From the NCBI RefSeq assembly GCF_905475395.1, contig NC_058342.1:29718140-29782139 (forward strand): a stretch of 64,000 nucleotides of DNA. Reading direction: 5' to 3'. Numbering within the stretch: position 1 is the stretch's first letter; each line of letters opens with the position of its first letter. The DNA is from Chrysoperla carnea (Eukaryota; Arthropoda; Insecta; Neuroptera; Chrysopidae). The notes under the pieces were generated by a model. The model was given only the letters and a program-made list of their open reading frames with translations. It had not been told where the DNA came from and searched no databases. Positions 3,701-58,869 of the stretch are shown here, piece by piece. Both the position numbers and the translations under genes were made by a program.

Positions 3701-3989
3701 CAATTTTTTTGTTTTATTTGTATCCAAATTATATTTAATCCATTTTGAGTTAACCCACAAATTTTGGGCAGATCTATTGCCAAGGACTTTTTCTTCTTAA
3801 AACTAAGTGAGAAACATTCAGGGGGATTTTTCAATATATTAACTATTCTTAACAAATTTTTAGATTACCTAAAAATTTTCTCTGATCCAAACACACGTTT
3901 TAAGCCAGGACCTATAAACCGTCCCATTTTTCCCATAGATTTACGACCAATATCTTTTTTCTAGTAGCAAAAACCTTTATCAAGCATAT

Positions 3990-4422
3990 AAATATTATCA
4001 AAGATAATAAATGAGAACTCTAGGATTTTTCGAAATAAATTTCGTTTTTTGCCCCAATTTCCTAAATTAATTTTTTTGTATTATATAAATACGTATTTCG
4101 ACTTCAGAGTAGTCATCATCAGTATGAATTAGCTAATCGTAATTAATCTTATTTTGTATGTTACTCGTTGCTAATTTGGTGACTAGAGCTTGGCTGACGT
4201 CACTGACATTACAATTTGACAGATACTTGGAAAAGTATAAATTGTAGGTACACGAAAATATCAATGTGCAGTCCGCCACCAAATTAGCAACGAGCAACAT
4301 ACACAATAATAGTAATTACGATTAGCTAATTCATACTGATGATGACTACTTGGTAGTCGATATTTATATAATACAAAAAATTGATCTTGGAAATTGGGGC
4401 AAAAATCGAAATTTATTTCTCT
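3990..4422. mobile_element. inverted pair of Penelope-like (hammerhead-bearing) repeats
   Basis: Two arms of about 150-200 bp in head-to-head orientation: GATTAGCTAATTCATACTGA reads rightward at about 4320 and leftward at about 4137. Each arm carries a CTGATGA box, a short hairpin and GAAA. The left core lies on the minus strand at 4096-4122; the right core on the plus strand at 4336-4362 is decayed to GATA. The outer part shares GGGGCAAAAATCGAAATTTA with the copies at 16.8, 26.3 and 35.4 kb. Hammerhead motifs and inverted terminal arrangements are known in Penelope-like retroelements. No reverse transcriptase is present, so this is a terminal fragment or a non-autonomous unit. Confidence 0.65.
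4096..4122 (-). ncRNA. hammerhead-ribozyme-like core (copy A, left arm)
   Basis: Read on the minus strand: CTGATGA, one extra T, a stem GACT...AGTC with two further positions, GAAA, then palindromic TACGTA at 4095-4090. The order CTGATGA-stem II-GAAA is the hammerhead catalytic core. The one-base insertion before stem II and the minimal stem III mean self-cleavage is not shown. Confidence 0.5.
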
Positions 4423-4429
4423 ATCAAGC

Positions 4430-5863
4430 AAATAAAAACTTAATTAGTGATATTTAAAGCACAATTTTATATTAATAGTGAATTAAGTATAGAAAATACA
4501 CTTAATTTTTCCGGTACAAATATGTTTAAATAACCTTTTTTCCAAAATAATTTTGGGAAAACAAACTTTCAGTAAAAACCTGTACTATGCGGTAAATTAT
4601 TATTCCAGTGTTTTAAAAGCTTCATATTTGAATTCTGTTTACTGTACGGGTTTTATCACTGTAAGACTGTTATTTTAGCTGTAAAAAAAAATAAGACTCA
4701 TTAATTTGAGCGATTTGAGGCGACAAATAAGACAATAGTTGCAATTTTGAATAATATGCACAATAATACAAGAAAAACAATTTTTCAATCGGATGCATTT
4801 CAATTAAGTGGAAATTTTAGCAATGTTTGTACATTTTTTCAAAGCGAGTAAAACTAGTGAAAACCAAAAAGTGAATTTTTATCATAATTGGGGAAAAAAG
4901 GCATTCATTTGAATTAAAATCGAGCTCTTTAGGAAAAAAACAAACTGAACATTTTTCTTGTAATTATACATTTTCGGTTTAATTTTATGAACGCATAAGT
5001 TATTGAGTATTGTTGAGGCAAAAATTTCTGAAATCTTTTAAAACGCCTAAAAAGTTATCGTGCATAACTCGTGATTTTTTTCTTGGAAAATCCTCGAAGA
5101 CAAAGACAATATGAACATTTTTTAAAAACGTTCTGAGAGAGTACTTATTCATCCTCTAACTGACTACTATCGATCGAAACAAAGTCCGGAAGAAAACGGA
5201 ATCCGTATATTGTATCTCTCTTTTTCTCTCAGAAAACTCTTTTATTTGGAATGGAGTCATTTAGGCTGAAATTCTAAATTATAAGGTCAGCGTCTTTCCT
5301 AGACTTGTTTATACTTTATTATTCCAGTTCGATTAATTAAATCGAACTAATCGAACATATATCAGATGTGTGAAGAAATTCCCAAATTGTCGAATTAATT
5401 CACGGTAATACACCCTTTTAAACTTCGCTACTCGTTAGAGAAGACTTTAGGATCTGAACTGGATTAACGAATAGAAGACCTACTGTATTCTCCTACGTCA
5501 TGAATTAACGAAATTTAATATTCCCAATATATTGCATTCATAAAAATTAAACTTACGCATGCGTATAAATTGATTTAATTTGATATTTAAAAATGAACTG
5601 CTGTATAAATTGTTCATCTGCCAAAATAACTGTGATGTTAATTATTAAATATGTATTAGGAATTGACTGTTAAAAGAAAATAAAAATAAGAAACATTGCC
5701 AAATATTCCACTCACTAAAAAAACATACTTGAATACGAGATTCGAAGATTTTTGGATCTTATAAAATCTAATTCAAGCATTATCATTTAGAACACACGTT
5801 CACTAGACCTATAAAGCTTTTTTTAGGACCATGAAGACTATAAAAAAAAGAGGCTTAATTCTG
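4430..5863. other. intergenic, no gene seen
   Basis: AT-rich DNA with stop codons in all frames. No recognisable repeat or RNA gene was found. Confidence 0.5.
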
Positions 5864-16200: not shown

Positions 16201-19200
16201 AACATTCAAATTTTCTGTTTTCAAAATTTTCCAAAATTTTTTGTTTGTTTGTTAAATCATAATATTTTCATTATTTGCATTTTTTATGTTTTTTCCAAGT
16301 AGTAGTTTTCACTTTTTAGTTTTTTTTTTTGTTTTATTTTGTTACAATTTTGAATATTAGATTCGGGGACTTCTATCCGGTAGACTGAAATCAATGGCTG
16401 AATTGGATGATTTCACTCGAAATGATGTGAGTTTTTTTTTTTTTTTATTTTTTTTTTTTAAATTAATTTTTTAAAAGGCCATTCCGAATTATTTAAAAAC
16501 GTTTGTTATCTATGATTATATAATAGTTATCTATTATAGCATCTCCTGAATGGATGCTTCTTGTTATTATTAGATGCTTTTTATTAGAATGGGATCAAGG
16601 CTGATTTAAGATTGGTGGGGGCCCTGAGGCCAGTTAATGGCGGGGGCTCGTACCAATAAACGTGAAAAATCGAGTAACCACAAAAGTGAATTTGGAGGAA
16701 TTATTAATTTGTCAACTTTATTTTTAATATAAATATTGTCAATGATAATAAATGAGAACTTTGGGATATTTCGAATCAATTTTTGATTTTTCTCCAATTT
16801 CTTAGATCAATTTTTGTGTTATATAAATGTGAATTTCGACTGCTATATAGTCATCATCAGTATTCATTAGCTAATCGTAATTATTCTTATAATGTTTGTT
16901 GCTCGTTGTTAATTTGGTGACGCTCTGCAAACTGATACATAATTTATACTTTTCCAAGTATCTAACAAATTGTGACGTCGGCCAATCATCTTCGATCAGG
17001 TGATTAGTTTTTGTCCAATGAGCGTGATCTTTATAGGCCAATGATATTTGAGTATTTTATCACCTGATTTTGACACTTAAAATAAAAATTTAAATTTTAA
17101 ACCAAAAATAAAATAAAATTTGTATTAAATCTGAATTTGAATAGGTCCTTTATAATTCTGAATGCGCCTTAAATCTAATCGTTTTTACTTATGATTAATT
17201 TTTCATTAGTTTCATTTATTTTTAACATTTGTTTTATTTAACCTAGATATTCGTCTTAAGCTAGAACTAATTAATCAAAATTTAGATTTCGTTACAACAA
17301 AATTGAGTTATAGAGTAAAGAAAAATTTAAAAACTCGTTGAAATACGTATTTTTTTCTAGTAATTTTATTATGTTTTACTAACGGAGGGGACCAGCATTT
17401 ACTTATTTTATAGAAAAAAATAATGGGTTGTTCACAAACTAAGGAACCAAATGAGACTGATTTCGAGATTGATCTCCGGGAATTTCTCTAAACTGAACTC
17501 TTGATTAAGTCACCTTTCAAAACATAATGGTTCCTTCCCGTCAGTTCGCTCCGGGGCTCCGTGGGTTCGATTTTAAATCAAAATAGTGATTTTTCATGAG
17601 TTGATTAAAGAAAGGTTTGCTGGTAAAAAACTTATCAAATTATAGGTCTAGGTTCATCCGTAGTATTTGACAGTTATTTCAGAATAACTGGAATGTCTGT
17701 TGTAAAGGTCGTGCCTAACAACTTTAATCCGATTGGATTTTTTCTTGATAATAATAAAAGTTATTAAACTTTTTTGGAAAGAACAAAAATTACATTTTTC
17801 GCTGAAATCTGGAGAATATTTATTCCCCTGTCCGGAGACCAGAGATACATTTCGAAAACCGGAGACTCCAGCCACAAAACCGGAGAAATGGCTAACTAAA
17901 AGAGCAAAAATTTGTTAGATACGACGTTGGCAACAGCTTTTCGAATTTCCAGCGGACTGTGAAATACTACACCTACAAAGACCTATTAAGTTCGCATTTG
18001 AAATAACTTAAAATCTGTATGCTTTAAAATAATTACAAATTCTTCTAACAATGCGATTTTTTAAGTATGTGTAAAAAATTTTAAATGAAATATATTTCTT
18101 AGATGGAACGTATCTTCAGTTACGCATGGAAAGGTAAGCGAGGTATATCTGGTTCTCTAGAAGAAAAGAAAACCGAACGAAATCCAGAGAAACATGCGGA
18201 GCAAGATCAATACGTAAACGATGAGACTGGTCTACAACGGCGACATATTGTCGATACCATGTTAACTGTTCACTTCTTTGGTAAAAAAGGCAAAGATGAA
18301 TTACGTTTTAATGGTTTTCGTAAATTTATGGAAAATTTACAAACAGAAGTATTAGAATTAGAATTTAATGAATTTTCTCGGGGCTTACCAACCATTTCGG
18401 AATTGGATTTTGCGAAAATTTTGCTAAGATACACGTATTTGGATACTGATGAGTAAGTAAAAGCCAGATTTTATTACCTATTCAATTTTGTTTTAGAAAA
18501 AATAAAATATATAGCCATGAGTGGGGCATTTTGTCAGCAAAAAATCCCCGCCCCCCAATTTTTTAGGGGAAGGCCATGAAAAAATTAAAGTTTATCGAAT
18601 AACCTCATTAGTTTGAAGAAATTTTCGACCAAATGCAAAAAAACCTCATCTATTTAGCATATATAGAAGCTACAAGCGTATCTTATGGAATAATCTTCTC
18701 ATTATGGGGGGGGGGTTACCGAATAGCCTCATTAGTTTAAAAATATTTCACATCTTTGCAAAAAATCGTACTCTTGATGACGGAACAATAATGACCGTAA
18801 AGCAGATGGTAAGAAGAGAAGATACGTGTTAAAAAAAATGTGTTTTTTTTTACTGATTTAGGGTTGTGGAAAATTCGATATGGCAACTCAGGTTATATTG
18901 ACTTACAGGATTTTTAAAACGGGCAGGTCGCTCCTAACTTATGTAACAATATTTGAATCTTTTTTCCAGATATGACATGTACTTAGATCGTTTAGTAGAA
19001 CGCTTAAACGAATCGGATCGAATATCATTCGATTCATTTAAAGATTTTTGTCAATTTCTAAATAATTTGGAAGACTTTACGGTTGCAATGCGTATGTACA
19101 CACTAGCCGATCGTCCAATATCGAAAGGTAAATTAATTTTTCTTAAAAAATTTATTAAATAGATGCTAAATATTCATTTTTAATTTAGATGAATTTACGC

Positions 19201-26121: not shown

Positions 26122-26186
26122 GTAAACAATATTCTAAAATAACAACCTTTTAGTTTCTTAATTTTCAATAAATATCTATTTATAAA

Positions 26187-26405
26187 TATTATCGAAGATA
26201 ATAAATGAGAACTCTAGGATATTTCGAAATAAATTTCGATTTTTGCCCCAATATTCTAGATCAGTTTTTTGTATTTTTAAAATACGTATTTTCGACTACC
26301 AAGTAGTCATCATCAGTAAGAATTAGCTAGTGAATGTTACTCTTTGCTAATTTGGTGGCGGACTGCACGTATCTAGGAAATTGGGGCAAAAATCGAAATT
26401 TATTT
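26187..26405. mobile_element. Penelope-like hammerhead repeat, copy C
   Basis: Carries the family block GATAATAAATGAGAACTCTA, GGATATTTCGAAATAAATTT, a hammerhead-like core on the minus strand at 26290-26316 with a perfect six-pair stem II (GACTAC/GTAGTC), and a GGCGGACTGCACGTA junction. It ends in an inverted GGAAATTGGGGCAAAAATCG, so it is a shortened inverted pair. It lies in the 3' flank of the first zinc-finger gene. Confidence 0.65.
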
Positions 26406-26460
26406 TAAATATTTATTTGTTTATTAAAATAAAAATATTTTTATATTTATGATCGTTTAT

Positions 26461-26573: not shown

Positions 26574-27521
26574 TCACACAGGGACTGGTTTTTCTCTGCT
26601 ATGCATTTTTAGTTTATGTTGAACTAAACCTTGTTTATAGCTAAATTTTATCTCACAAAGATCACAAGAGAAAGGTTTTTCCCCAGTATGTGTGCGTTTA
26701 TGTTTAACTAAATAATCTGGACGAGTAAATTTTTTCTCACAAACATCACAAGAAAATCGCTTTTCTCCAGTATGAGTTCGTTTATGTATATTTAAATATC
26801 GTTTATTTTTAAATTTTTTCTCACAAACATCACAAGAGAATGATTCTTTGAACAATTCTTGATAATTTGATTCAGTTTCAATTTCTTGCAACATTTCATC
26901 GTGATTTTCATCTTTTATAATTAAATCTGTATGGAGGAGCTCTGGTTCAATTTTAACATCACAAGAGTGTGATTCTTTGAACAATTCTTGATAATTTGAT
27001 TCAGTTTCAATTTCTTGCAACATTTCATCGTGATTTTCATCTTTTATAATTAAATCTGTATGGAGGAGCTCTGGTTCAATTTTAACATCACAAGAGTGTG
27101 ATTCTTTGAACAATTCTTGATAATTTGATTCAGTTTCAATTTCTTGCAACATTTCATCGTGACTTTCATCTTTTATAATTAAATCTGTATGGAGGAGCTC
27201 TGGTTCAATTTTAACATCACAAGAGTGTGATTCTTTGAACAATTCTTGATAATTTGCTTCAGTTTCAATTTCTTGCAAAATTTCATCGTGACTTTCATCT
27301 TTTAAAATTAAATCTGCATCGAGCTCTGGTTCAATTTTAATTCTTTGGTTTTTTAGTATTATTTCATTATCAGTTATATTGTGACATATTTCGTCATGAA
27401 CCTCTTCTTTGATTTTGAATTCTTCATTTTCCATATTTTCACCTATATTTTGTTTTTTTTGTACCATCAAGATAAATATTTTATATAAGTAATTATACTC
27501 AAAAAAATGCTTACCATCCAT
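26574..27521 (-). CDS. C2H2 zinc-finger protein with acidic tandem repeats
   Basis: Probable nuclear DNA-binding protein. ATG at 27519-27521 starts MDG; the codon run ATGGATG is followed by a perfect donor GTAAGC, and an acceptor TATAG lies at the 27443 side. A 72-base intron (27443-27514) therefore separates a 7-base exon from the main exon 26574-27442, giving about 291 residues beginning MDGENMENEE. Reading through the intron stays in frame. Residues up to 203 are acidic, with IKEEV and tandem 43-residue repeats containing VKIEPE, a psi-K-x-E SUMO-type motif. Three C2H2 fingers follow (CDVCEKKF, CDVCEKKF, CDLCEIKF) with TGEK linkers; the last is H-x4-H. No BTB, KRAB or ZAD domain is visible. 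Paralogue of the gene at 29.3-30.5 kb. The target is unknown. Confidence 0.85.
   Translation of the reverse strand: MDGKHFFEYNYLYKIFILMVQKKQNIGENMENEEFKIKEEVHDEICHNITDNEIILKNQRIKIEPELDADLILKDESHDEILQEIETEANYQELFKESHSCDVKIEPELLHTDLIIKDESHDEMLQEIETESNYQELFKESHSCDVKIEPELLHTDLIIKDENHDEMLQEIETESNYQELFKESHSCDVKIEPELLHTDLIIKDENHDEMLQEIETESNYQELFKESFSCDVCEKKFKNKRYLNIHKRTHTGEKRFSCDVCEKKFTRPDYLVKHKRTHTGEKPFSCDLCEIKFSYKQGLVQHKLKMHSREKPVPV
26840..27330 (-). repeat. 129-bp coding tandem repeat, almost four units
   Basis: The word complementary to CTTGCAA recurs at 26885, 27014, 27143 and 27272, exactly 129 bp (43 codons) apart, so every unit keeps frame. Copies differ at few positions (SHDE/NHDE, EILQ/EMLQ). 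The last unit runs into the first zinc finger through a shared SCDV. Confidence 0.95.
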
Positions 27522-28009
27522 TATTTTATGAAAAATAAAAATATATCATAAATTCAAATAAAAAGTACGAAATAAAAATAAAACGTACAAAACGGCGGAG
27601 GGATACTTTGTGCTTTCAAGAAAAACTGAAACATTGGCTCTAAAAAAATATGACTTTTCCTGACATCTATGGCGACGAAGTAAAATTCATTACCGGGACA
27701 TTCAAATTGGTGTTTCTGAGAAAACATTTTAAAAGTTTGTGCCTTTTTAACTCAATAAATACCGAGTAAAACTCGGTCATTCAGATACTTATTATAATTC
27801 AAGTAAATTAATCATTAAATGTTGCGCACTATATTTAATTCAATAAATAAGTATCCTTAATACAATAACGAACAAAGATTTTATAACTAAAGCGCTATAT
27901 ATGTGGGTAAGATCGTCCGCCATTTTTGACTAATGTCAAATCGACAAAATTTTCTCAAACATATACATATTATACCATGTATATATGAAATATACATAGT
28001 ATTATAAGT

Positions 28010-29315: not shown

Positions 29316-30545
29316 TCACACAAGGACTGGTTTTTCTTTACTATGGAGTCTTAGTTTATGCTGAATTAAATTTTGTTGGATGCTAAATTTTTTCTCACAA
29401 ACATCACAAGAAAATTGTTTTTTTCCCATATGTGTTCGTTCATGTTGAACCAAACTTTGTTTAAAGCTAAATTTTATCTCACAAAGATCACAAGAAAATG
29501 GTTTTTCTCCAGTATGTGTTCGTTTATGTTGAACTAAACTTTCTCGGCGATTAAATTTTTTCTCACAAACATCACAAGTGAATGGTGTTTCTCCAGTATG
29601 AATTCGTTTATGGCGAATTAAATGGTGCTGTTGGTTAAATTTTTTCTCACAAACATCACACAAAAATGGTTTTTCTCCAGTATGAGTTCGTTTGTGAATA
29701 ACTAAAGTTTGTTTATAGCTAAATTTTTTTTCACAAACATCACAAGAAAATAGGTTTTCACCAGTATGTGTTCGTTTATGTCCAATTAAATGCTGTTGTC
29801 GATTAAACTTCTTATTACAAACATCACAAGAAAATGGTTTTTCTCCAGTATGAGTTCGTTTGTGTCCAACTAAATGGTGTTGTACGATAAATTTTTTCTC
29901 ACAAACATCACATGAAAATGGTTTTTCTCCAGTATGTGTGCGTTTATGGACAATTAAATGGTTTTGTTGGTTAAACATTTTATTACAAACATCACATGAG
30001 AATAATTTTTCTGCAGAATGAGTTCGTTTATGTACAACTAAATTTTGTCTATGGTTAAATTTTTTTTCACAAACATCACAAGAAAATTGGTTTTTCCCCG
30101 TATGCGTTCGTTTATGTATAACTAAAGTGCGTCGATAGTTAAATATTTCATCACACACGTCACATGAATACAATTTTTGCTTCTGTATTTGTTTTTGTTT
30201 ACGTAATTTAATTGTAGTTGTATCACAAAAATAATTTTCCTTGAACACTTCTTGATGATTTGAATCAGTTTCAGTTTTTTCCAACATTTCATCTTTTATA
30301 ATTAACTCTGAATTAAACTCTGGTTCAATTTTAACCCTTTCATTTTTTATTATTATATTATTATCACTTATATTGTCACATATTTCATTATTTTCAAATA
30401 ATTTTTCGTCATTAACCTCTTCTTTGATCTTCATTTCTAAACATAATTCTTCATTTCTTATGTTTTCACCTATATTTTTTAAAATTACCATTAAAATAAA
30501 CATTATAAATAAATAATTATTTTTAAAAAAATTCTTACCATCCAT
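29316..30545 (-). CDS. C2H2 zinc-finger protein, ten fingers
   Basis: Probable sequence-specific DNA-binding protein. The start resembles the 26.6-kb gene: a 7-base first exon (30539-30545, ATGGATG), donor GTAAGA, a 69-base intron (30470-30538) ending ATATAG, then the main exon 29316-30469. This gives about 386 residues beginning MDGENIRNEE. The acidic N-terminus (IKEEVNDE, VKIEPE) fills residues 1-102. Ten C2H2 fingers of 28-residue period run from about residue 103 to the end, most as CDVCEKKF...H-x3-H with TGEKPF linkers. Linkers after fingers 1 (TGKNQ), 2 (SAEKL) and 9 (MGKKQ) deviate, and the tenth finger is H-x4-H. It lacks the 43-residue tandem repeats of its neighbour. Near-identical fingers suggest recent expansion or gene conversion. 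Targets unknown. Confidence 0.88.
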   Translation of the reverse strand: MDGKNFFKNNYLFIMFILMVILKNIGENIRNEELCLEMKIKEEVNDEKLFENNEICDNISDNNIIIKNERVKIEPEFNSELIIKDEMLEKTETDSNHQEVFKENYFCDTTTIKLRKQKQIQKQKLYSCDVCDEIFNYRRTLVIHKRTHTGKNQFSCDVCEKKFNHRQNLVVHKRTHSAEKLFSCDVCNKMFNQQNHLIVHKRTHTGEKPFSCDVCEKKFIVQHHLVGHKRTHTGEKPFSCDVCNKKFNRQQHLIGHKRTHTGENLFSCDVCEKKFSYKQTLVIHKRTHTGEKPFLCDVCEKKFNQQHHLIRHKRIHTGETPFTCDVCEKKFNRRESLVQHKRTHTGEKPFSCDLCEIKFSFKQSLVQHERTHMGKKQFSCDVCEKKFSIQQNLIQHKLRLHSKEKPVLV

Positions 30546-30620
30546 TATTTTAGGTATTAAATATAAAAAAGTATAAACTATTTAAAGTAAATAAATATAC
30601 TAATGTCAAATGTTCTCTTA

Positions 30621-32111: not shown

Positions 32112-33147
32112 ATGTCTTCAAAAGAAATTCTCAGTTTTCTTGAATTAGTTGGCCAATTAAAAGTAAGAAATTAGAAAAATTATCAAATTTTAGCTTATAT
32201 TTAATTCAACATTTTCGAATTCTAGCATTTAAAACGGGAAGGATGGGTTATTAAGAAAATCGACAATTGTGAAACTGTTTCGGGGCATATGTATCGAATG
32301 GCGATGTGTACATTTTTATTAGACGAGAAAAGTCAATTAAATCGTACAAAATGTTTAGAATTAGCTTTAGTTCACGATTTAGCCGAATCAATAATTGGTG
32401 ATATAACACCAAATGAAGGAATTCCACCAGATGTAAAACATCAAATGGAGCTAGAAGCCATGCGAAAAATAACGAAATTATTACCAAAAAGTACGGGAGA
32501 TCGAATTATGGAATTATTTGAGGTATGCTTTTTTTTTTTATTAAATATATATATCAAGGTATACCAAGTTTAATCCAAAGTTTGTAACGCTTAAAAATGT
32601 TAATAATAATAATAATAATAATAATGGGGTTTAACCTCCGTTTCTCTGACATATACGCCAATTATGATAAATGAGGGCGGTAGAATTGATCACATTGTCG
32701 TCGTTTGAATAAGAACGAAGTAACCGACTCCACCCACATCAAAATGTAATTGTAAATATGTTTGTAATTAAATAAATAAAGATTAACAAATAATGATGTG
32801 GGTGACCTCTGTGTTAAGGCGTATGCCATAAAAACGGAGGTTATAAACCCCCAGTATTTTTAATGAGTAACTCAGTAAATTGTTGGTCTTGAGTAAGTAG
32901 TTTAGTGATAACTTTTGTTTTCTAGGAATACGAATCGCGAGAAACAGATGAAGCAAAATTTGTTAAAGAATTGGATTATTTCGATATGGTTCAACAGGCT
33001 TATGAATATGAGAAATCAACGAATGTTAATTTACAAGAGTTTTTTACGGCTGTTGAAGGAAAATTTTCAACACCACTTTTAGTGAACTTAAAAATGGAAC
33101 TAGATAAGAAACGAGCTGAGATTAAGAGCGATGAAAATATAGAATAA
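32112..33147 (+). CDS. HDDC2: HD-domain 5'-deoxynucleotidase HDDC2
   Basis: Metal-dependent phosphohydrolase of the YfbR/HDDC2 family, which removes the 5' phosphate from deoxyribonucleoside monophosphates; probably cytosolic. Three exons join in phase 0 to 189 residues: 32112-32162, 32226-32522 and 32926-33147 (TAA), close to the roughly 200 residues usual for the family. Metal and catalytic residues are present: His38 in VSGHMYR, His67-Asp68 in LALVHDLAE, Glu71, Asp76 in GDITP, and Asp133 in KELDYFDM. The start MSSKEILSFLELVGQLK gives the family's N-terminal helix. No targeting signal is seen. Intron 2 holds an inverted pair of SINE tails. A complete, apparently functional gene. Confidence 0.95.
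32600..32850. mobile_element. inverted SINE-tail pair in HDDC2 intron 2
   Basis: Starts with (TAA)n at 32601-32624, then ATGGGGTTTAACCTCCGTTT. It ends with AAAACGGAGGTTATAAACCC in the opposite orientation, with GATGTGGGTGACCTCTG before it. Both ends match the 3' tail of the tRNA-derived SINE at 54.3 kb, so two tails lie head to head. Confidence 0.6.
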
Positions 33148-35319: not shown

Positions 35320-35527
35320 TTATAAATATTATCGAAGATTATAAATTAGAACTCTAGGATATTTCGAAATAAATTTCGATTTTTCCTCAATTTCCTAGAT
35401 CAGTTTTTTTGTATTTTATAAATATGTATTTCGACTACCAAGTAGTCATAATCAGTATGAATTAGCTAATCGTAATTACTCTTATTATGAATGTTACTCG
35501 TTGTTAATTTGGTGGCGGACTGTACTT
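35320..35527. mobile_element. Penelope-like hammerhead repeat, copy D
   Basis: Single arm with GAACTCTAGGATATTTCG, GAAATAAATTTCGATTTTT, a hammerhead-like core on the minus strand at 35429-35455 (box decayed to CTGATTA, perfect stem II, GAAA), GAATTAGCTAATCG and a truncated GGTGGCGGACTGTAC end. Confidence 0.6.
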
Positions 35528-45019: not shown

Positions 45020-45475
45020 TAACTTTCATCTACCTACAGAATTAAATCTACTGAGGACTCAGTAGAGATGCCAATTTTCGCATCCGTTAATACCAACGAA
45101 TTTATCAGAATTCGACAGTGCGAATACTTAAATAAAATGTATCGTTTCAAGGCAATCGCTTCCGTCAGACTTCTTAGGAATTTTTACATAACCTGTTTAA
45201 TTTAAATCTTAAAGTTCGTTCTTTTAAGTTTACGCAATCCACTATACAACTTTCATGTACCTACAGTAATGAATCTACTGAGGATTCAGTAGAGATGCCA
45301 ATACGAAAAGAGGTAAAAGCATTCTCTTTTTCGTATTCGTTAATACCGCGACTTTGTCCGAATTCGACAGTGCGAATACTTAAATAAAATTTACCGTTTC
45401 AAGGCAATCGCTTCCGTCAGATTTCTTAGGAATTTTTACATAACCTGTTTAATTTTAATCTTAAAGTTCATATAT
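45020..45475. repeat. tandem duplication, 227-bp unit
   Basis: ATCTACTGAGGACTCAGTAG begins near 45046 and recurs near 45273 (GAGGATTCAGTAG). Both units continue with AATTCGACAGTGCGAATACT, TAAATAAAAT, GTTTCAAGGCAATCGCTTCC and TTACATAACCTGTTTAAT. Unit two has a local insertion (CGAAAAGAGG). Confidence 0.85.
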
Positions 45476-50399: not shown

Positions 50400-52440
50400 C
50401 TTTTCCTCTCAATAACCTTTTTCGAATGAGTTATCTTCAGAAAATGAAGTATTTTCATTTTACGCGTATGGGGAATGTTGGGGTTTCGATACGTTTTCGT
50501 ACGTTTATGGTTTCGTTTTTACGACAGCTAACAATTATGACCGTTTTTACAACAGCTAACATCAATAACCTTCTTCGAATGACTTGAGGTGATGAAAATG
50601 AAGTATTTTCATTTTACGCGGCTGGGAAATGATAGGGTTTCGAAAGGTTTTAGTTTTTATTACAGCTAACATCTAACACTGTTTTCTTTATCTCGCAATA
50701 ACTTTTTTGGTAAGAGTTATCTTGAGAAGATAAAAATGAAGTACTTTAATTTTACGCGGATGAGGAATGCTAGGGTTTCTATTGGTTTTCGTTTTAGGCG
50801 AATGGGTAAATTTTATGGTTTCGTTTTTTACGACAGCTAACAATTATGACCGTTTTTACAACAGCTAACATCAATAACCTTTTTCGAATGACTCTATCTT
50901 GAGGCGATGAAAATGAAGTATTTTCATTTTACGCGGATGGCAAATGATAGGGTTTCGATAGGTTTTAGTTTTTTATTACAGTTCACATCTAACACTGTTT
51001 TCTTTATCTCGCAATAACTTTTTTGGTAAGAGTTATCTTGAGAAGATAAAAATGAAGTACTTTAATTTTACGCGGATGAGGAATGCTAGGGTTTCTATTG
51101 GTTTTCGTTTTAGGCGAATGGGTAAATTTTAAGGTTTCGTTTTTTACGACACCTAACAATTATGACCGTTTTTACAACAGCTAACATCAATAACCTTTTT
51201 CGAATAACTCTATCTTGAGGCGATGAAAATGAAGTATTTTCATTTTACGCGGATGGCAAATGATAGGGTTTCGATAGGTTTTAGTTTTTTATTACAGTTC
51301 ACATCTAACACGGATTTCTTAATCTCTAAATAATTTTTTTGGTTAGGGTAATCTTGAGGTTATAAAAATAAAGTATTTTCATTTTACGCTGGTGGTTAGT
51401 TGCGTAAAATGAAAAGACTTCATTTTTACGAAGTATTTCATGGGGTTTTTATAGGTTTTCGTTTTAGGCGAATGGGTAAATTTTAGGGTTTCGATTTTAT
51501 AACACCTAACAATTATGACCGTTTTTACAACAGCTAACATCAATAACCTTCTTCGAATGACTCTATCTTGAGGCGATGAAAATGAAGTATTTTCACTTTA
51601 CGCGGTTGGGAAATGATAGGGTTTCGATAGGTTTTCGTTTTTATTACAGCTAACATCTAACAACGATTTCTTTATCTCTAAATAATTTTTTTCGTAATAT
51701 TTATCTTGAGACTGAAAATGTAGTATTTTCATTTTACGCGGATGGGGAATGCTGGGGTTTCTATAGGTTTTCGCTTTATGCGAATGGGTAAATTTTAAGG
51801 TTTCGTTTTTACGACAGCTAACAGTTATGACCGTTTTTATAACAGCTAACATCAATAACCTTGTTCGAATGACTCTATCTTGAGGTTGCGAAAATGAAGT
51901 ATTTTCAATTTACGCGGTTGGGGAATGAATGGTTTTCGTATTTACGATATCTAAAAACTAAGACCCTTTACATTTCCACTTGTGGTCCTCTTAAAATGAA
52001 ATATTTTCATTTTAAGATGGAGAATAATAATAGCGATCGCCAGATGATTATAATGAATTTTAAGGTCTAATTGGTGTTTGTTTTAACAATTAAGGCTGCC
52101 TTCTGTTTTTCCTCTCAACAAAATTATTCGCAAGAATTATCTTGAGGAGGTAAAAACGAAGAACTTTGGTTTTATACCGATGGGAAGACGGTTTCGATAG
52201 GTTTTCGGTTTTACTATGTCTAACATTTAAGACCTGTTTTTTTCCTGTTAATTAATAGTATTTTCATTTTAAGATGGAGAATGATAATAGCGATCGCCAG
52301 GTGATGACAATGAATTTTAAGGTTCCGATTGGTGTTCGAGTTTATTATATCTAACAACTAAGGCTGTTTTCTTTTCTTCTCAATAACTTTATTCGAAGTT
52401 AATATTGAGGTGACACAAATGAGGTATTTTGGAGAGTTCT
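50400..52440. repeat. satellite-like tandem array, about 310-350-bp unit
   Basis: The word GACCGTTTTTA recurs at 50539, 50847, 51164, 51517 and 51829 (spacings 308, 317, 353, 312). Each unit holds GAAGTATTTTCATTTTACGC, GGTTTTCGTTTTAGGCGAAT, GACAGCTAACAATTATGACC, ACAACAGCTAACATCAATAA and TATCTTGAGGCGATGAAAAT. The edges, notably 51900-52440, are more diverged, which fits homogenisation of central copies. Confidence 0.9.
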
Positions 52441-57557: not shown

Positions 57558-58701
57558 TCATCGGAAACGCTCTCGTACAACATAAAATATGGACATTGTA
57601 ATGTAGAAGGGAAGGATTAGACTGACTGATTTTTGTTTCATGCTCGATGATCCTCTGTTGTAAGTGAGTTCCTCGTTTTTAACGACTTCATTCTCATGCT
57701 TATTATGTTCATCTGTTAAAAAAATATAAAAATGTTAATATCACAAGAGTTAATATGTGACATGTTGCGGTGTATTAAACCATTTTCAAGTTGTGATAAA
57801 TAAAAACAAATCCGTTTTTATGTTAACTGAAAGTTGTTACTTACTTGTTTTCTTGTTAAGCTGTTTTCGTGAAGGTCGTGATTGTGTTGATTTGGGTGTT
57901 GTGGGTGCTGTGTAGGTATGAGCTGGTGATGTGGGTCCTGGTGTTTGCCATTCGGGCCATGCGATCTTTGTCAACGCCGTTCCAACTGTTGGTACTCGAG
58001 CATCTGATACAGCTGTGCTTGGCTTTTCCGATGTTACTTCCGGTGCACAGCATACTTTGAAAACGACTTTCATGTTGTGGGTTGAGCATCGGCCTCCGAT
58101 TCGACGATGTAAGTCACCTTTTGATGATGTTGCTAGAAAATAAATATGAAAGTGACAGATAAACTTCAGTTCAGATAATCTTCTCCAGTGTAAACTGGAC
58201 TGAACACTTGGTGATTACTTCTAGTAATTTTAGAAAAGAATACTATATGACGGTTTCGATTGGGACGTGAAATATTTTAGATATACATTAGCACTAGTTT
58301 AGCCCATTCTCTTTTGGGATAGATGACATTTTTCAAAATAAGTCTCGGTGTTTTGAAGGGATAATAAAAATAATATGAAAAAATACTTACAAATGAAATA
58401 ATAATCATTTCCAGGTAAGAATTCTAGGCCACCAGGTTGTGGGGTAAATGGTCGAAAGGTGATTGTGAAGTACATGGTTTTAAATGGTTTGTCACATATT
58501 GCGATGATCCGAGGATTTAAGTCTGTTATTCGACATGTTTCATATTCTTCTTTAGATACATTGTATATGATATACTTCTCGGGATCACCGTCATATGCAC
58601 CCGGCATATACGTCGGACATATTATGTTGACCTGGTCATATTCAAACTGTACATTCCCTTTGTTGACATCAATAATATGATCGGTATTATCAATCCTGAA
58701 A
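57558..58701 (-). CDS. Ephrin: Ephrin, C-terminal three exons (5' part missing)
   Basis: Membrane-tethered ligand of Eph receptor tyrosine kinases, used in contact-dependent cell and axon guidance. Exons on the minus strand: 58391-58701, 57845-58132 and 57558-57712 (TGA), joined in frame for about 250 residues. The first exon opens FRIDNTDHIIDVNKGN and contains MPGAYDGDPEKYIIYNVSK, RPFTPQPGGLEFLPG and YYFI. The four ectodomain cysteines are visible in IICPTY, ETCRI, AICDKP and GGRCSTH. A Ser/Thr/Pro-rich stalk follows. The end is a hydrophobic segment SVSLILPFYITMSIFYVV and a basic RERFR tail, so it could be a single-pass anchor or a GPI signal. The signal peptide and the WN-containing start of the domain were not found to 64000 and must lie beyond the edge. 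Confidence 0.93.
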
Positions 58702-58869
58702 CTGAAAGAAAAAACCAGATATTAGTAAGTCTCATGTAATTTTATTCTAATAATATTAAAATGTTTTATTAAAAAAAAAATTTAAGTGAGGCTATGATTA
58801 CGTATTTATAAAAATCGTTAAAATCTCTGTAAAAAATGTTCAGAGGTAAGTTTCATTTTATAATATAAA
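58702..58869 (-). other. ephrin intron, start
   Basis: Begins at the acceptor TTTCTTTCAG complementary to 58702-58711. All sequence to 64000 is probably this intron, since no upstream ephrin exon was found. Confidence 0.6.

Follow-up and report, generated by a model that had tools for sequence, protein, structure and literature searches.

The window, a 64,000-nt stretch from contig 6 of the Chrysoperla carnea genome, was analysed around an inverted repeat at locus A. To judge by sequence, positions 3987–4418 are a decayed, head-to-head pair of pLTR copies of a Penelope-like element (PLE), an assignment based on protein domains and pLTR anatomy. An initial annotation had described hammerhead-like cores in a head-to-head inverted repeat, and the repeat itself is borne out: its 87-nt arms, at 4095–4181 and 4277–4363, are 91% complementary, and the string CTGATGATGACTAC lies at 4109–4122 (minus strand) and 4336–4349 (plus strand). 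The extent given then, 4096..4362, takes in the motif region, but the true feature is larger, covering 3987–4418 plus 12-nt duplications at 3975–3986 and 4419–4430. Its parts are as follows.

3975–3986: left target-site duplication CTTTATCAAGCA, one mismatch against 4419–4430
3987–4183, minus strand: left pLTR arm with tail, 5' end inward, profile positions 13–207
3987–4032, minus strand: optional tail, in the left arm only, profile positions 164–207 (44 positions, 46 nt here)
4085–4125, minus strand: minimal type I hammerhead motif of the left arm, as read from sequence
4125–4123 with 4087–4085, minus strand: stem I of that motif, 3 bp adjoining the core
4122–4116, minus strand: CUGAUGA of that motif, then an extra U at 4115
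4114–4100, minus strand: stem II of that motif, 5 of 6 pairs, one A-A mismatch
4099–4096, minus strand: G12 to A15.1 of that motif, a sequence reading
4096–4089, minus strand: left-arm palindrome AUACGUAU, then U17 at 4088
between 4088 and 4087, minus strand: cleavage site predicted from the sequence
4190–4418, plus strand: right pLTR arm, without tail, 5' end inward, profile positions 3–163
4236–4266, plus strand: TATAAAT (4236–4242) and initiator-like TCAATG (4261–4266), about 28 nt apart by sequence reading
4333–4363, plus strand: right-arm hammerhead remnant (CUGAUGA, U, 6-bp stem II, GA), with a 6-nt deletion after 4360
4419–4430: right target-site duplication CTCTATCAAGCA, pairing with 3975–3986

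The tail of the left arm includes a terminal ATTATC-TTT-GATAAT hairpin. The right arm extends at its 5' end into upstream promoter-like sequence, and a region similar to 4236–4266 is present in an intact relative described below; this stretch may act as a promoter in the right arm. Two further copies in the window (C and D, below) start within a few nucleotides of the initiator-like sequence, as though from RNA beginning there. By eye, the two arms of locus A have some variants in common that are absent from the window's other copies.

The left arm has its hammerhead sense on the minus strand, where it reads CTGATGA-T-GACTAC.TCT.GAAGTC-GAAA-TACGTA-TTTAT. Its numbering and predicted cleavage position follow the hammerhead consensus. 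The initial annotation had seen CTGATGA, a hairpin and GAAA in both arms; this stands for the left arm, but the right-arm core has been lost to a 6-nt deletion. What was read there as GATA, a variant of GAAA, aligns as GTCGA[AATACG]TATT, with six bases missing. This deletion (GUCGA[AAUACG]UAUU in the RNA) leaves the right arm with neither A14 nor A15.1 and with little of helix III. The core order CUGANGA, GAAA, UH is kept by the left arm and by copies B and C of the window, and broken in the right arm by the deletion and in copy D by a change of G8 to U. The palindrome TACGTA, previously noted, is intact in two of the five window arms (left arm of A, and C) and broken or lost in the others. 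Pairing of GATTA with TGATC, also proposed, holds in the right arm; the left arm has GATTA/TAATT with one G-U pair, and copy C lacks GATTA. All five window arms have an extra U between A9 and stem II, a feature absent from the earlier description. To go by the sequence, no core at locus A other than the left one could be active.

A paralogue of locus A was found on contig 1 near its end (L008, C1 139.66 Mb; the window locus, L003, is at C6 29.72 Mb). One of its flanks is 94% identical to that of locus A across 1.7 kb and the other 88% across 1 kb; its two 12-mer target-site duplications are identical, and it has about 160 nt extra between the arms. Its right-arm hammerhead core is intact, so the loss at locus A is most simply secondary.

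When the plus strand of the whole of locus A was folded, it gave a long hairpin with an MFE of −194.4 kcal/mol (z −23.9), and by this model the left core would be hidden in any RNA that extends across the two arms. The idea that transcripts from either strand would carry an active-sense core fails on two counts: the right arm has lost its core, and the two arms are predicted to pair with each other, so that both core regions would be buried in such an RNA. The best local Rfam match, MIR6135 (36 bits against a 99-bit cut-off), sits on this long hairpin and was dismissed.

BLAST and the arm profile located three more loci in the window, B (near 16729–16932), C (26182–26406) and D (35322–35525), so that five arms cover the motif region; as parts they are taken as follows:

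16720–17113, minus strand: copy B, a diverged pLTR with tail and further-upstream sequence, 67% to the intact unit
26181–26406, minus strand: copy C, a young head-to-head pair, 98.4% identical to the intact unit
35321–35526, minus strand: copy D, a single pLTR arm with tail, 82% to the intact unit

Identity to the intact PLE unit is 80% for the left arm of locus A and 79% for the right. Copy B retains the core CTGATGA/GAAA, with its palindrome broken (TTCACA); copy D has CTGATTA and the palindrome TACATA. In copy C the long arm (26369–26182) has the tail and the motif, with one extra A in GAAAA, and the short opposite arm (26370–26406, 37 nt) has neither; a 12–13-nt duplication with one mismatch flanks the pair. 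The pattern CTGANGA-N(6–30)-CGAAA occurs five times in the window against 0.58 expected from shuffles, and three of the five are copies of the locus A repeat. The remaining matches, at 45278 and 50420, were taken as chance, on inspection of the one at 50420.

No piece of a PLE ORF was detected in the window by tblastn, and no RT domain by Pfam among the 10 submitted of its 20 ORFs of at least 90 aa. Ordinary animal genes do lie near the copies: an ephrin-like stretch (PF00812) at 58299–58721 on the minus strand and an HD-domain-like stretch (PF13023) at 32226–32573 on the plus strand. About 170 nt separate the stop of a C2H2 zinc-finger ORF (26574–27545, minus strand) from copy C, which follows downstream in the same sense with its motif complete; if that gene had a long 3' UTR, the motif would be in it. 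Upstream of its fingers this ORF has several near-identical acidic repeats, ELLHTDLIIKDE...HDEMLQEIETE.NYQELFKES, and a related zinc-finger ORF is at 29316–30581 on the minus strand.

We searched the genome (559,487,470 bp in 337 contigs) with locus A as a DNA query and obtained 94 matches, 40 of 2889 first-look candidates having been scored. In some single copies the sequence runs on upstream to a short open frame bearing ELDAYESIYIQKL. This 67-aa ORF end by itself had no Pfam or PDB match; used as a query it led to 150 places, among them several open frames of 804–819 aa, some of which lie in arrays of tandem and head-to-head units. One of these, L068:4001-6457 on the minus strand, is uninterrupted for 791 aa from its ATG. 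In the Pfam search of this one ORF, RVT_1 was matched at 343–533 (E 5.3e-16) and GIY-YIG at 710–793 (E 3.9e-4; 21.1 bits, slightly under the cut-off of 22.6), and the ORF contains GIYCIGCQNCSKKYVG, YVDD and a GIY-YIG-like motif. Its CUGAUGA core is 140 nt upstream of the ATG, and the tail ends about 6–10 nt before the ATG. In L068–L071 the motif recurs every 2816–2818 bp, once per pLTR, as tandem copies. Across L068–L072, similar PLE units with long open frames are arrayed on either side of a single inversion point, in runs facing left and right.

The genome has the PLE traits of a single ORF with RT and C-terminal GIY-YIG and of pLTRs in tandem and partial-tandem copies, and next to an intact RVT_1/GIY-YIG ORF it carries the arm and motif seen at locus A. 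The earlier attribution of the copies to Penelope-like pLTRs is upheld by this, and the linked ORF is of RT/GIY-YIG type, not an unrelated transposase. The type I layout, with a palindromic helix III able to pair between two RNAs, likewise matches PLE descriptions (excerpts of PMC7761336 and PMC6466107). Overall the initial observation of cores in an inverted repeat was partly confirmed, and its interpretation as a Penelope-like hammerhead pair is partly supported.

The ends of the arms were compared among loci that are the best matches of two queries, locus A and the ORF end, not a random sample. The arm profile was given 65 sources (fetched stretches and the window), of which 60 hold an arm; dropping six duplicate loci (L008, L038, L044, L066, L073, L074) left 54 sources with 88 arms. 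L009 repeats L004. Among these best-match arms, 3' ends fell at profile 160–167 in 30, at 204–207 in 44 (a class that takes in eight arms of internal units continuing into the ORF) and elsewhere in 14, so that 74 of 88 end in one of two classes. The two classes differ by the tail, about 44 nt long. Many single arms likewise have these 3' ends.

Every non-duplicate locus with arms on both strands was head-to-head (23 of 23, best matches of the two queries). Three pairs (L029, L054, L071) could not be classified by their outer ends; in 18 of the 20 that could, again best matches, one end had the tail and the other did not (p 2e-4 against independent ends). The remaining two pairs, L015 and L053, lacked the tail on both arms, and no pair had two tails. 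The second arms of L058 (E 0.0047) and L010 (E 0.0011) are weak; without both, mixed pairs number 16 of 18. Duplications at the borders were sought in 20 distinct best-match pairs, with L054, L056 and L058 left out: 11 were good, two weak and seven had none that convinced. Perfect duplications measured 12 nt in L007, 10 in L051, 12 in L065, 13 in L068/69, 14 in L070 and 10 in L072. These lengths are approximate because each border could slide by 4–5 nt in the search, and p values have a floor near 0.007 because random null positions could coincide.

Unequal outer ends bear on two other origins for such pairs. A fold-back DNA transposon or MITE, with the motif in its inverted repeat by chance, would account for a palindromic 432-bp structure with flanking duplications, but we regard it as scarcely credible, given the tail difference in 18 of 20 classifiable pairs, duplications of variable length, the frequency of single arms with the same 3' ends, and the link to an RT/GIY-YIG ORF. 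Self-priming, in which one cDNA or RNA is copied by folding back and two priming events are unnecessary, has been proposed for Adineta Penelope from palindromes at inner junctions (PMC3846280, in part), and the variants that the two locus A arms have in common speak for it. We judge it unlikely, although it keeps appreciable weight: a single cDNA should give equal outer ends, in disagreement with the same 18 of 20 pairs, and the two inner junctions examined, those of A and C, have no palindrome beyond four pairs (longest perfect palindromes of four pairs, TGACGTCA, and two pairs, respectively). Priming at both ends of a staggered break from two start sites fits both the one-tail/no-tail ends and the 10–14-nt duplications.

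The predicted cleavage site is spanned by 75 of the 88 arms, and no arm has its start closer to it than about 8 nt, so most of the reverse-transcribed RNAs were uncut at that site. Some short arms start at profile 126–141, near GATCTAG (L010, L017, L051, L052, L056, L059 and window 26370–26406); this cluster could be a preferred point of cDNA stopping or joining, internal deletions as in L051, or an artefact of the profile.

A third origin, as a non-autonomous repeat of retrozyme type whose canonical type I hammerhead let it spread via small circular RNAs, appears very improbable. Short AT-rich units of about 200 nt, the type I motif and target duplications above 4 bp are all as in animal non-LTR retrozymes (PMC7229834, in part). 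Those, as described there, consist of small units in tandem that encode no protein themselves, and their hammerheads make canonical loop contacts and, in invertebrates, have a stable helix III; they are defined by head-to-tail units of about 150–450 bp processed by the hammerhead. Here the units are not head-to-tail tandems of 150–450 bp, the arm serves as pLTR to a unit of 2.8 kb that encodes an RT/GIY-YIG ORF itself, helix III is just a palindrome with no loop, and 0 of 88 arms begin at the hammerhead cut.

Of 84 arms two could not be parsed, and the best-match loci gave 54 unique parsed arms. CUGANGA was exact in 45 of these 54, GAA was present in 50 and A15.1 in 50; stem II had six contiguous pairs in 36, and helix III was a perfect palindrome of four or five pairs in 31. 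Core, stem II and palindrome were all kept in 15. The extra nucleotide between A9 and stem II was U in 51 of the 54. An extra A occurs in the natural hammerhead of a chrysanthemum viroid (PMC3705267, in part).

Two subfamilies differ in a way that preserves pairing. Subfamily A reads CAUA ... GAA-AUACGUAU-U-UAUA, and subfamily C, which includes the intact elements, reads CUUA ... GAA-AAUACGUAUU-U-UAAA; relative to A, pair 2.3–1.3 has gone from A-U to U-A and helix III is longer by one A-U pair. Intermediates exist, with CUUA and the short palindrome in the minus-strand arms of L048, L049, L052 and L053, and with CUUA, the long palindrome and U still at 1.3 in the plus-strand arm of L053, pointing to stepwise changes in which a U-U mismatch was later repaired. 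The inner 3 bp of stem I and the palindromic helix III would stay paired through the subfamily changes. Compensating stem changes across genomic copies, a test proposed in the initial annotation, were found, but they come from one lineage and amount to few independent events. Among the five window arms alone, one pair changed on both sides, and 101 of 500 shuffles reached that. Conservation was 0.978 in the motif core and 0.925–0.944 in the rest of the arm; we rejected this as a sign of selection, the difference being small and the copies mostly dead.

Rfam hammerhead models found nothing at gathering score in the 64 kb and nothing at E 10 in 3900–4600, so that the model match looked for at the locus was not obtained. 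They were equally silent at E 10 on the pLTR of the intact element; the models therefore seem not to cover this variant, and their silence says little. In folding, the hammerhead was the monomer minimum for none of the five window arms, although the right arm of A, C and D do form stem II. As dimers, a hammerhead-like form scored −12.9 against a minimum of −22.7 for the left arm of A, and −24.1 against −28.1 for C; these scores used the longest palindrome, so stem I is not counted in them. The dimer minimum of C has stem II and the intermolecular palindrome, without stem I beside the core.

Related motifs were sought elsewhere in the genome with the pattern CTGANGATG-N-CGAAACG, which itself fixes U after A9. 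There were 32 matches against two in a reversed control, and one of the 32 has the stem II of the locus A family. Among 30 unique matches, 11 had at least four contiguous stem II pairs, compared with a shuffled mean of 1.6 and maximum of 7 (G-U allowed, the closing G-C fixed by the pattern). These are possibly other PLE families. The motif pattern had no match in public viral contigs, and its matches at two loci in bacterial genomes were judged chance by a rough estimate. A search of the literature for the string CGAAATACGTAT gave a sole match, on an unrelated subject.

The motif might instead be a dead look-alike of a hammerhead, kept only along with the pLTR (for example as a protein-binding site or a part of the promoter) and never cleaving. 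The core is little more conserved than the arm around it, a U is added after A9, stem I has just 3 bp adjoining the core, folding does not favour the hammerhead, and no arm 5' end lies at the cleavage site. The Anolis PLE hammerhead, too, was uncut without protein and dispensable for insertion in vitro (excerpts of PMC11167929). Yet subfamily C restores pair 2.3–1.3 of stem I and adds an A-U pair to helix III, other motif families keep the core while stem II varies, and the pattern far outnumbers its reversed control. We think it improbable that the motif is such a look-alike, while allowing it a real minority share.

Our preferred reading, to which we give a probability of roughly 90%, is that locus A is an old PLE insertion, a head-to-head pLTR pair primed from two ends, with the hammerhead carried along. 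The pLTR brings together three parts: a stretch resembling a promoter, a minimal type I hammerhead motif within the 5' UTR, and a region, presumably at the tail end, where reverse transcription would start, immediately ahead of the ORF start codon. The RT/GIY-YIG protein of the element would cut the target with a stagger of 10–14 nt, and both 3' ends of the break would prime reverse transcription inside element RNA, one start being at the tail end and the other about 44 nt upstream. The two cDNAs may stop at variable 5' points and have their inner ends joined, which would yield a head-to-head pair within a short target-site duplication. We infer this order of steps from the finished products. 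The hammerhead would be a passenger. Its predicted substrates are tandem transcripts of the element, which it may cleave as a dimer joined by the palindromic helix III, and any activity today is likewise a prediction; most inserted copies would derive from RNA not cut at its site.

The asymmetry of the tails may say more. One might suppose that PLE integration is normally two-ended and asymmetric: the protomers of a dimeric RT/endonuclease, priming at the two ends of a single staggered break, would use different start sites on the RNA, one being the tail end and the other lying about 44 nt upstream. Head-to-head pairs with a single tail would then be the usual outcome, and tandem arrays would extend outward from them. 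We offer this tentatively and consider it clearly less likely than not. Work on the Anolis element, in the excerpts of PMC11167929, showed no apparent strand difference in RT start and does not predict asymmetric tails, which counts against the preferred reading as well.

PLE transposition is comparatively little understood (PMC11167929, in part). The lacewing genome, where head-to-head PLE arrays are young, duplications are clean and ends fall into two sharp classes, is a natural collection of integration products. The tail asymmetry of head-to-head pairs is the clearest mechanistic signal here and the part worth following: at 18 of 20 it turns a qualitative remark of the literature into something countable, and no count of it was found in the open-licence literature searched. 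As for the hammerhead, subfamilies appear to keep its fold via stepwise changes, in a variant that the Rfam models seem to miss. Earlier publications have described hammerheads in PLEs, inverted pLTRs and optional tails, and locus A is a further example of the known PLE-type hammerhead pLTR, not a new system.

PLE hammerheads are described as minimal type I motifs lacking helix III, located in pLTRs, that may cleave as dimers (excerpts of PMC7761336, PMC6155905 and PMC6466107). The motif here resembles those of Cervera & de la Pena 2014 and Lunse, Weinberg & Breaker 2017, as cited in PMC7761336 and PMC6466107 (both in part), in its pLTR location, in the order CUGANGA, stem II, GAAA, UH, in a near-absent palindromic helix III that permits a dimer, and in tandem copies within the element. 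Relative to those published motifs, which we compare through review descriptions, it may differ in the extra nucleotide after A9. Another difference is that the copies at locus A are solo and head-to-head, and so provide no tandem pair in one RNA, as a dimer needs.

Penelope of Adineta vaga (PMC3846280, in part) shares the RT and GIY-YIG ORF, pLTRs and partial-tandem copies, and its traits include head-to-head inverted pLTRs with a tail optionally on one and short target-site duplications; self-priming on an antisense template is favoured there. The tail is about 44 nt here against 31 bp in Adineta, the ORF begins directly behind the tail here but within the pLTR there, duplications are 10–14 nt against 8–10 bp, and neither of the two inner junctions examined here has a long palindrome.

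An experimental counterpart is Poseidon of Anolis carolinensis, PAc (excerpts of PMC11167929). In vitro, PAc used two adjacent internal RT start sites, which account for its tail and match the tail and no-tail ends seen here; both strands were cut and extended; hammerhead mutants still inserted, and the hammerhead was cleaved only with protein present. PAc also has its hammerhead near the ORF start, and tandem copies. RT would start just before the ATG in the lacewing element, whereas in PAc it starts 111–118 nt inside the ORF, and the lack of an apparent strand difference in start use reported in those excerpts differs from the tail asymmetry of the lacewing pairs.
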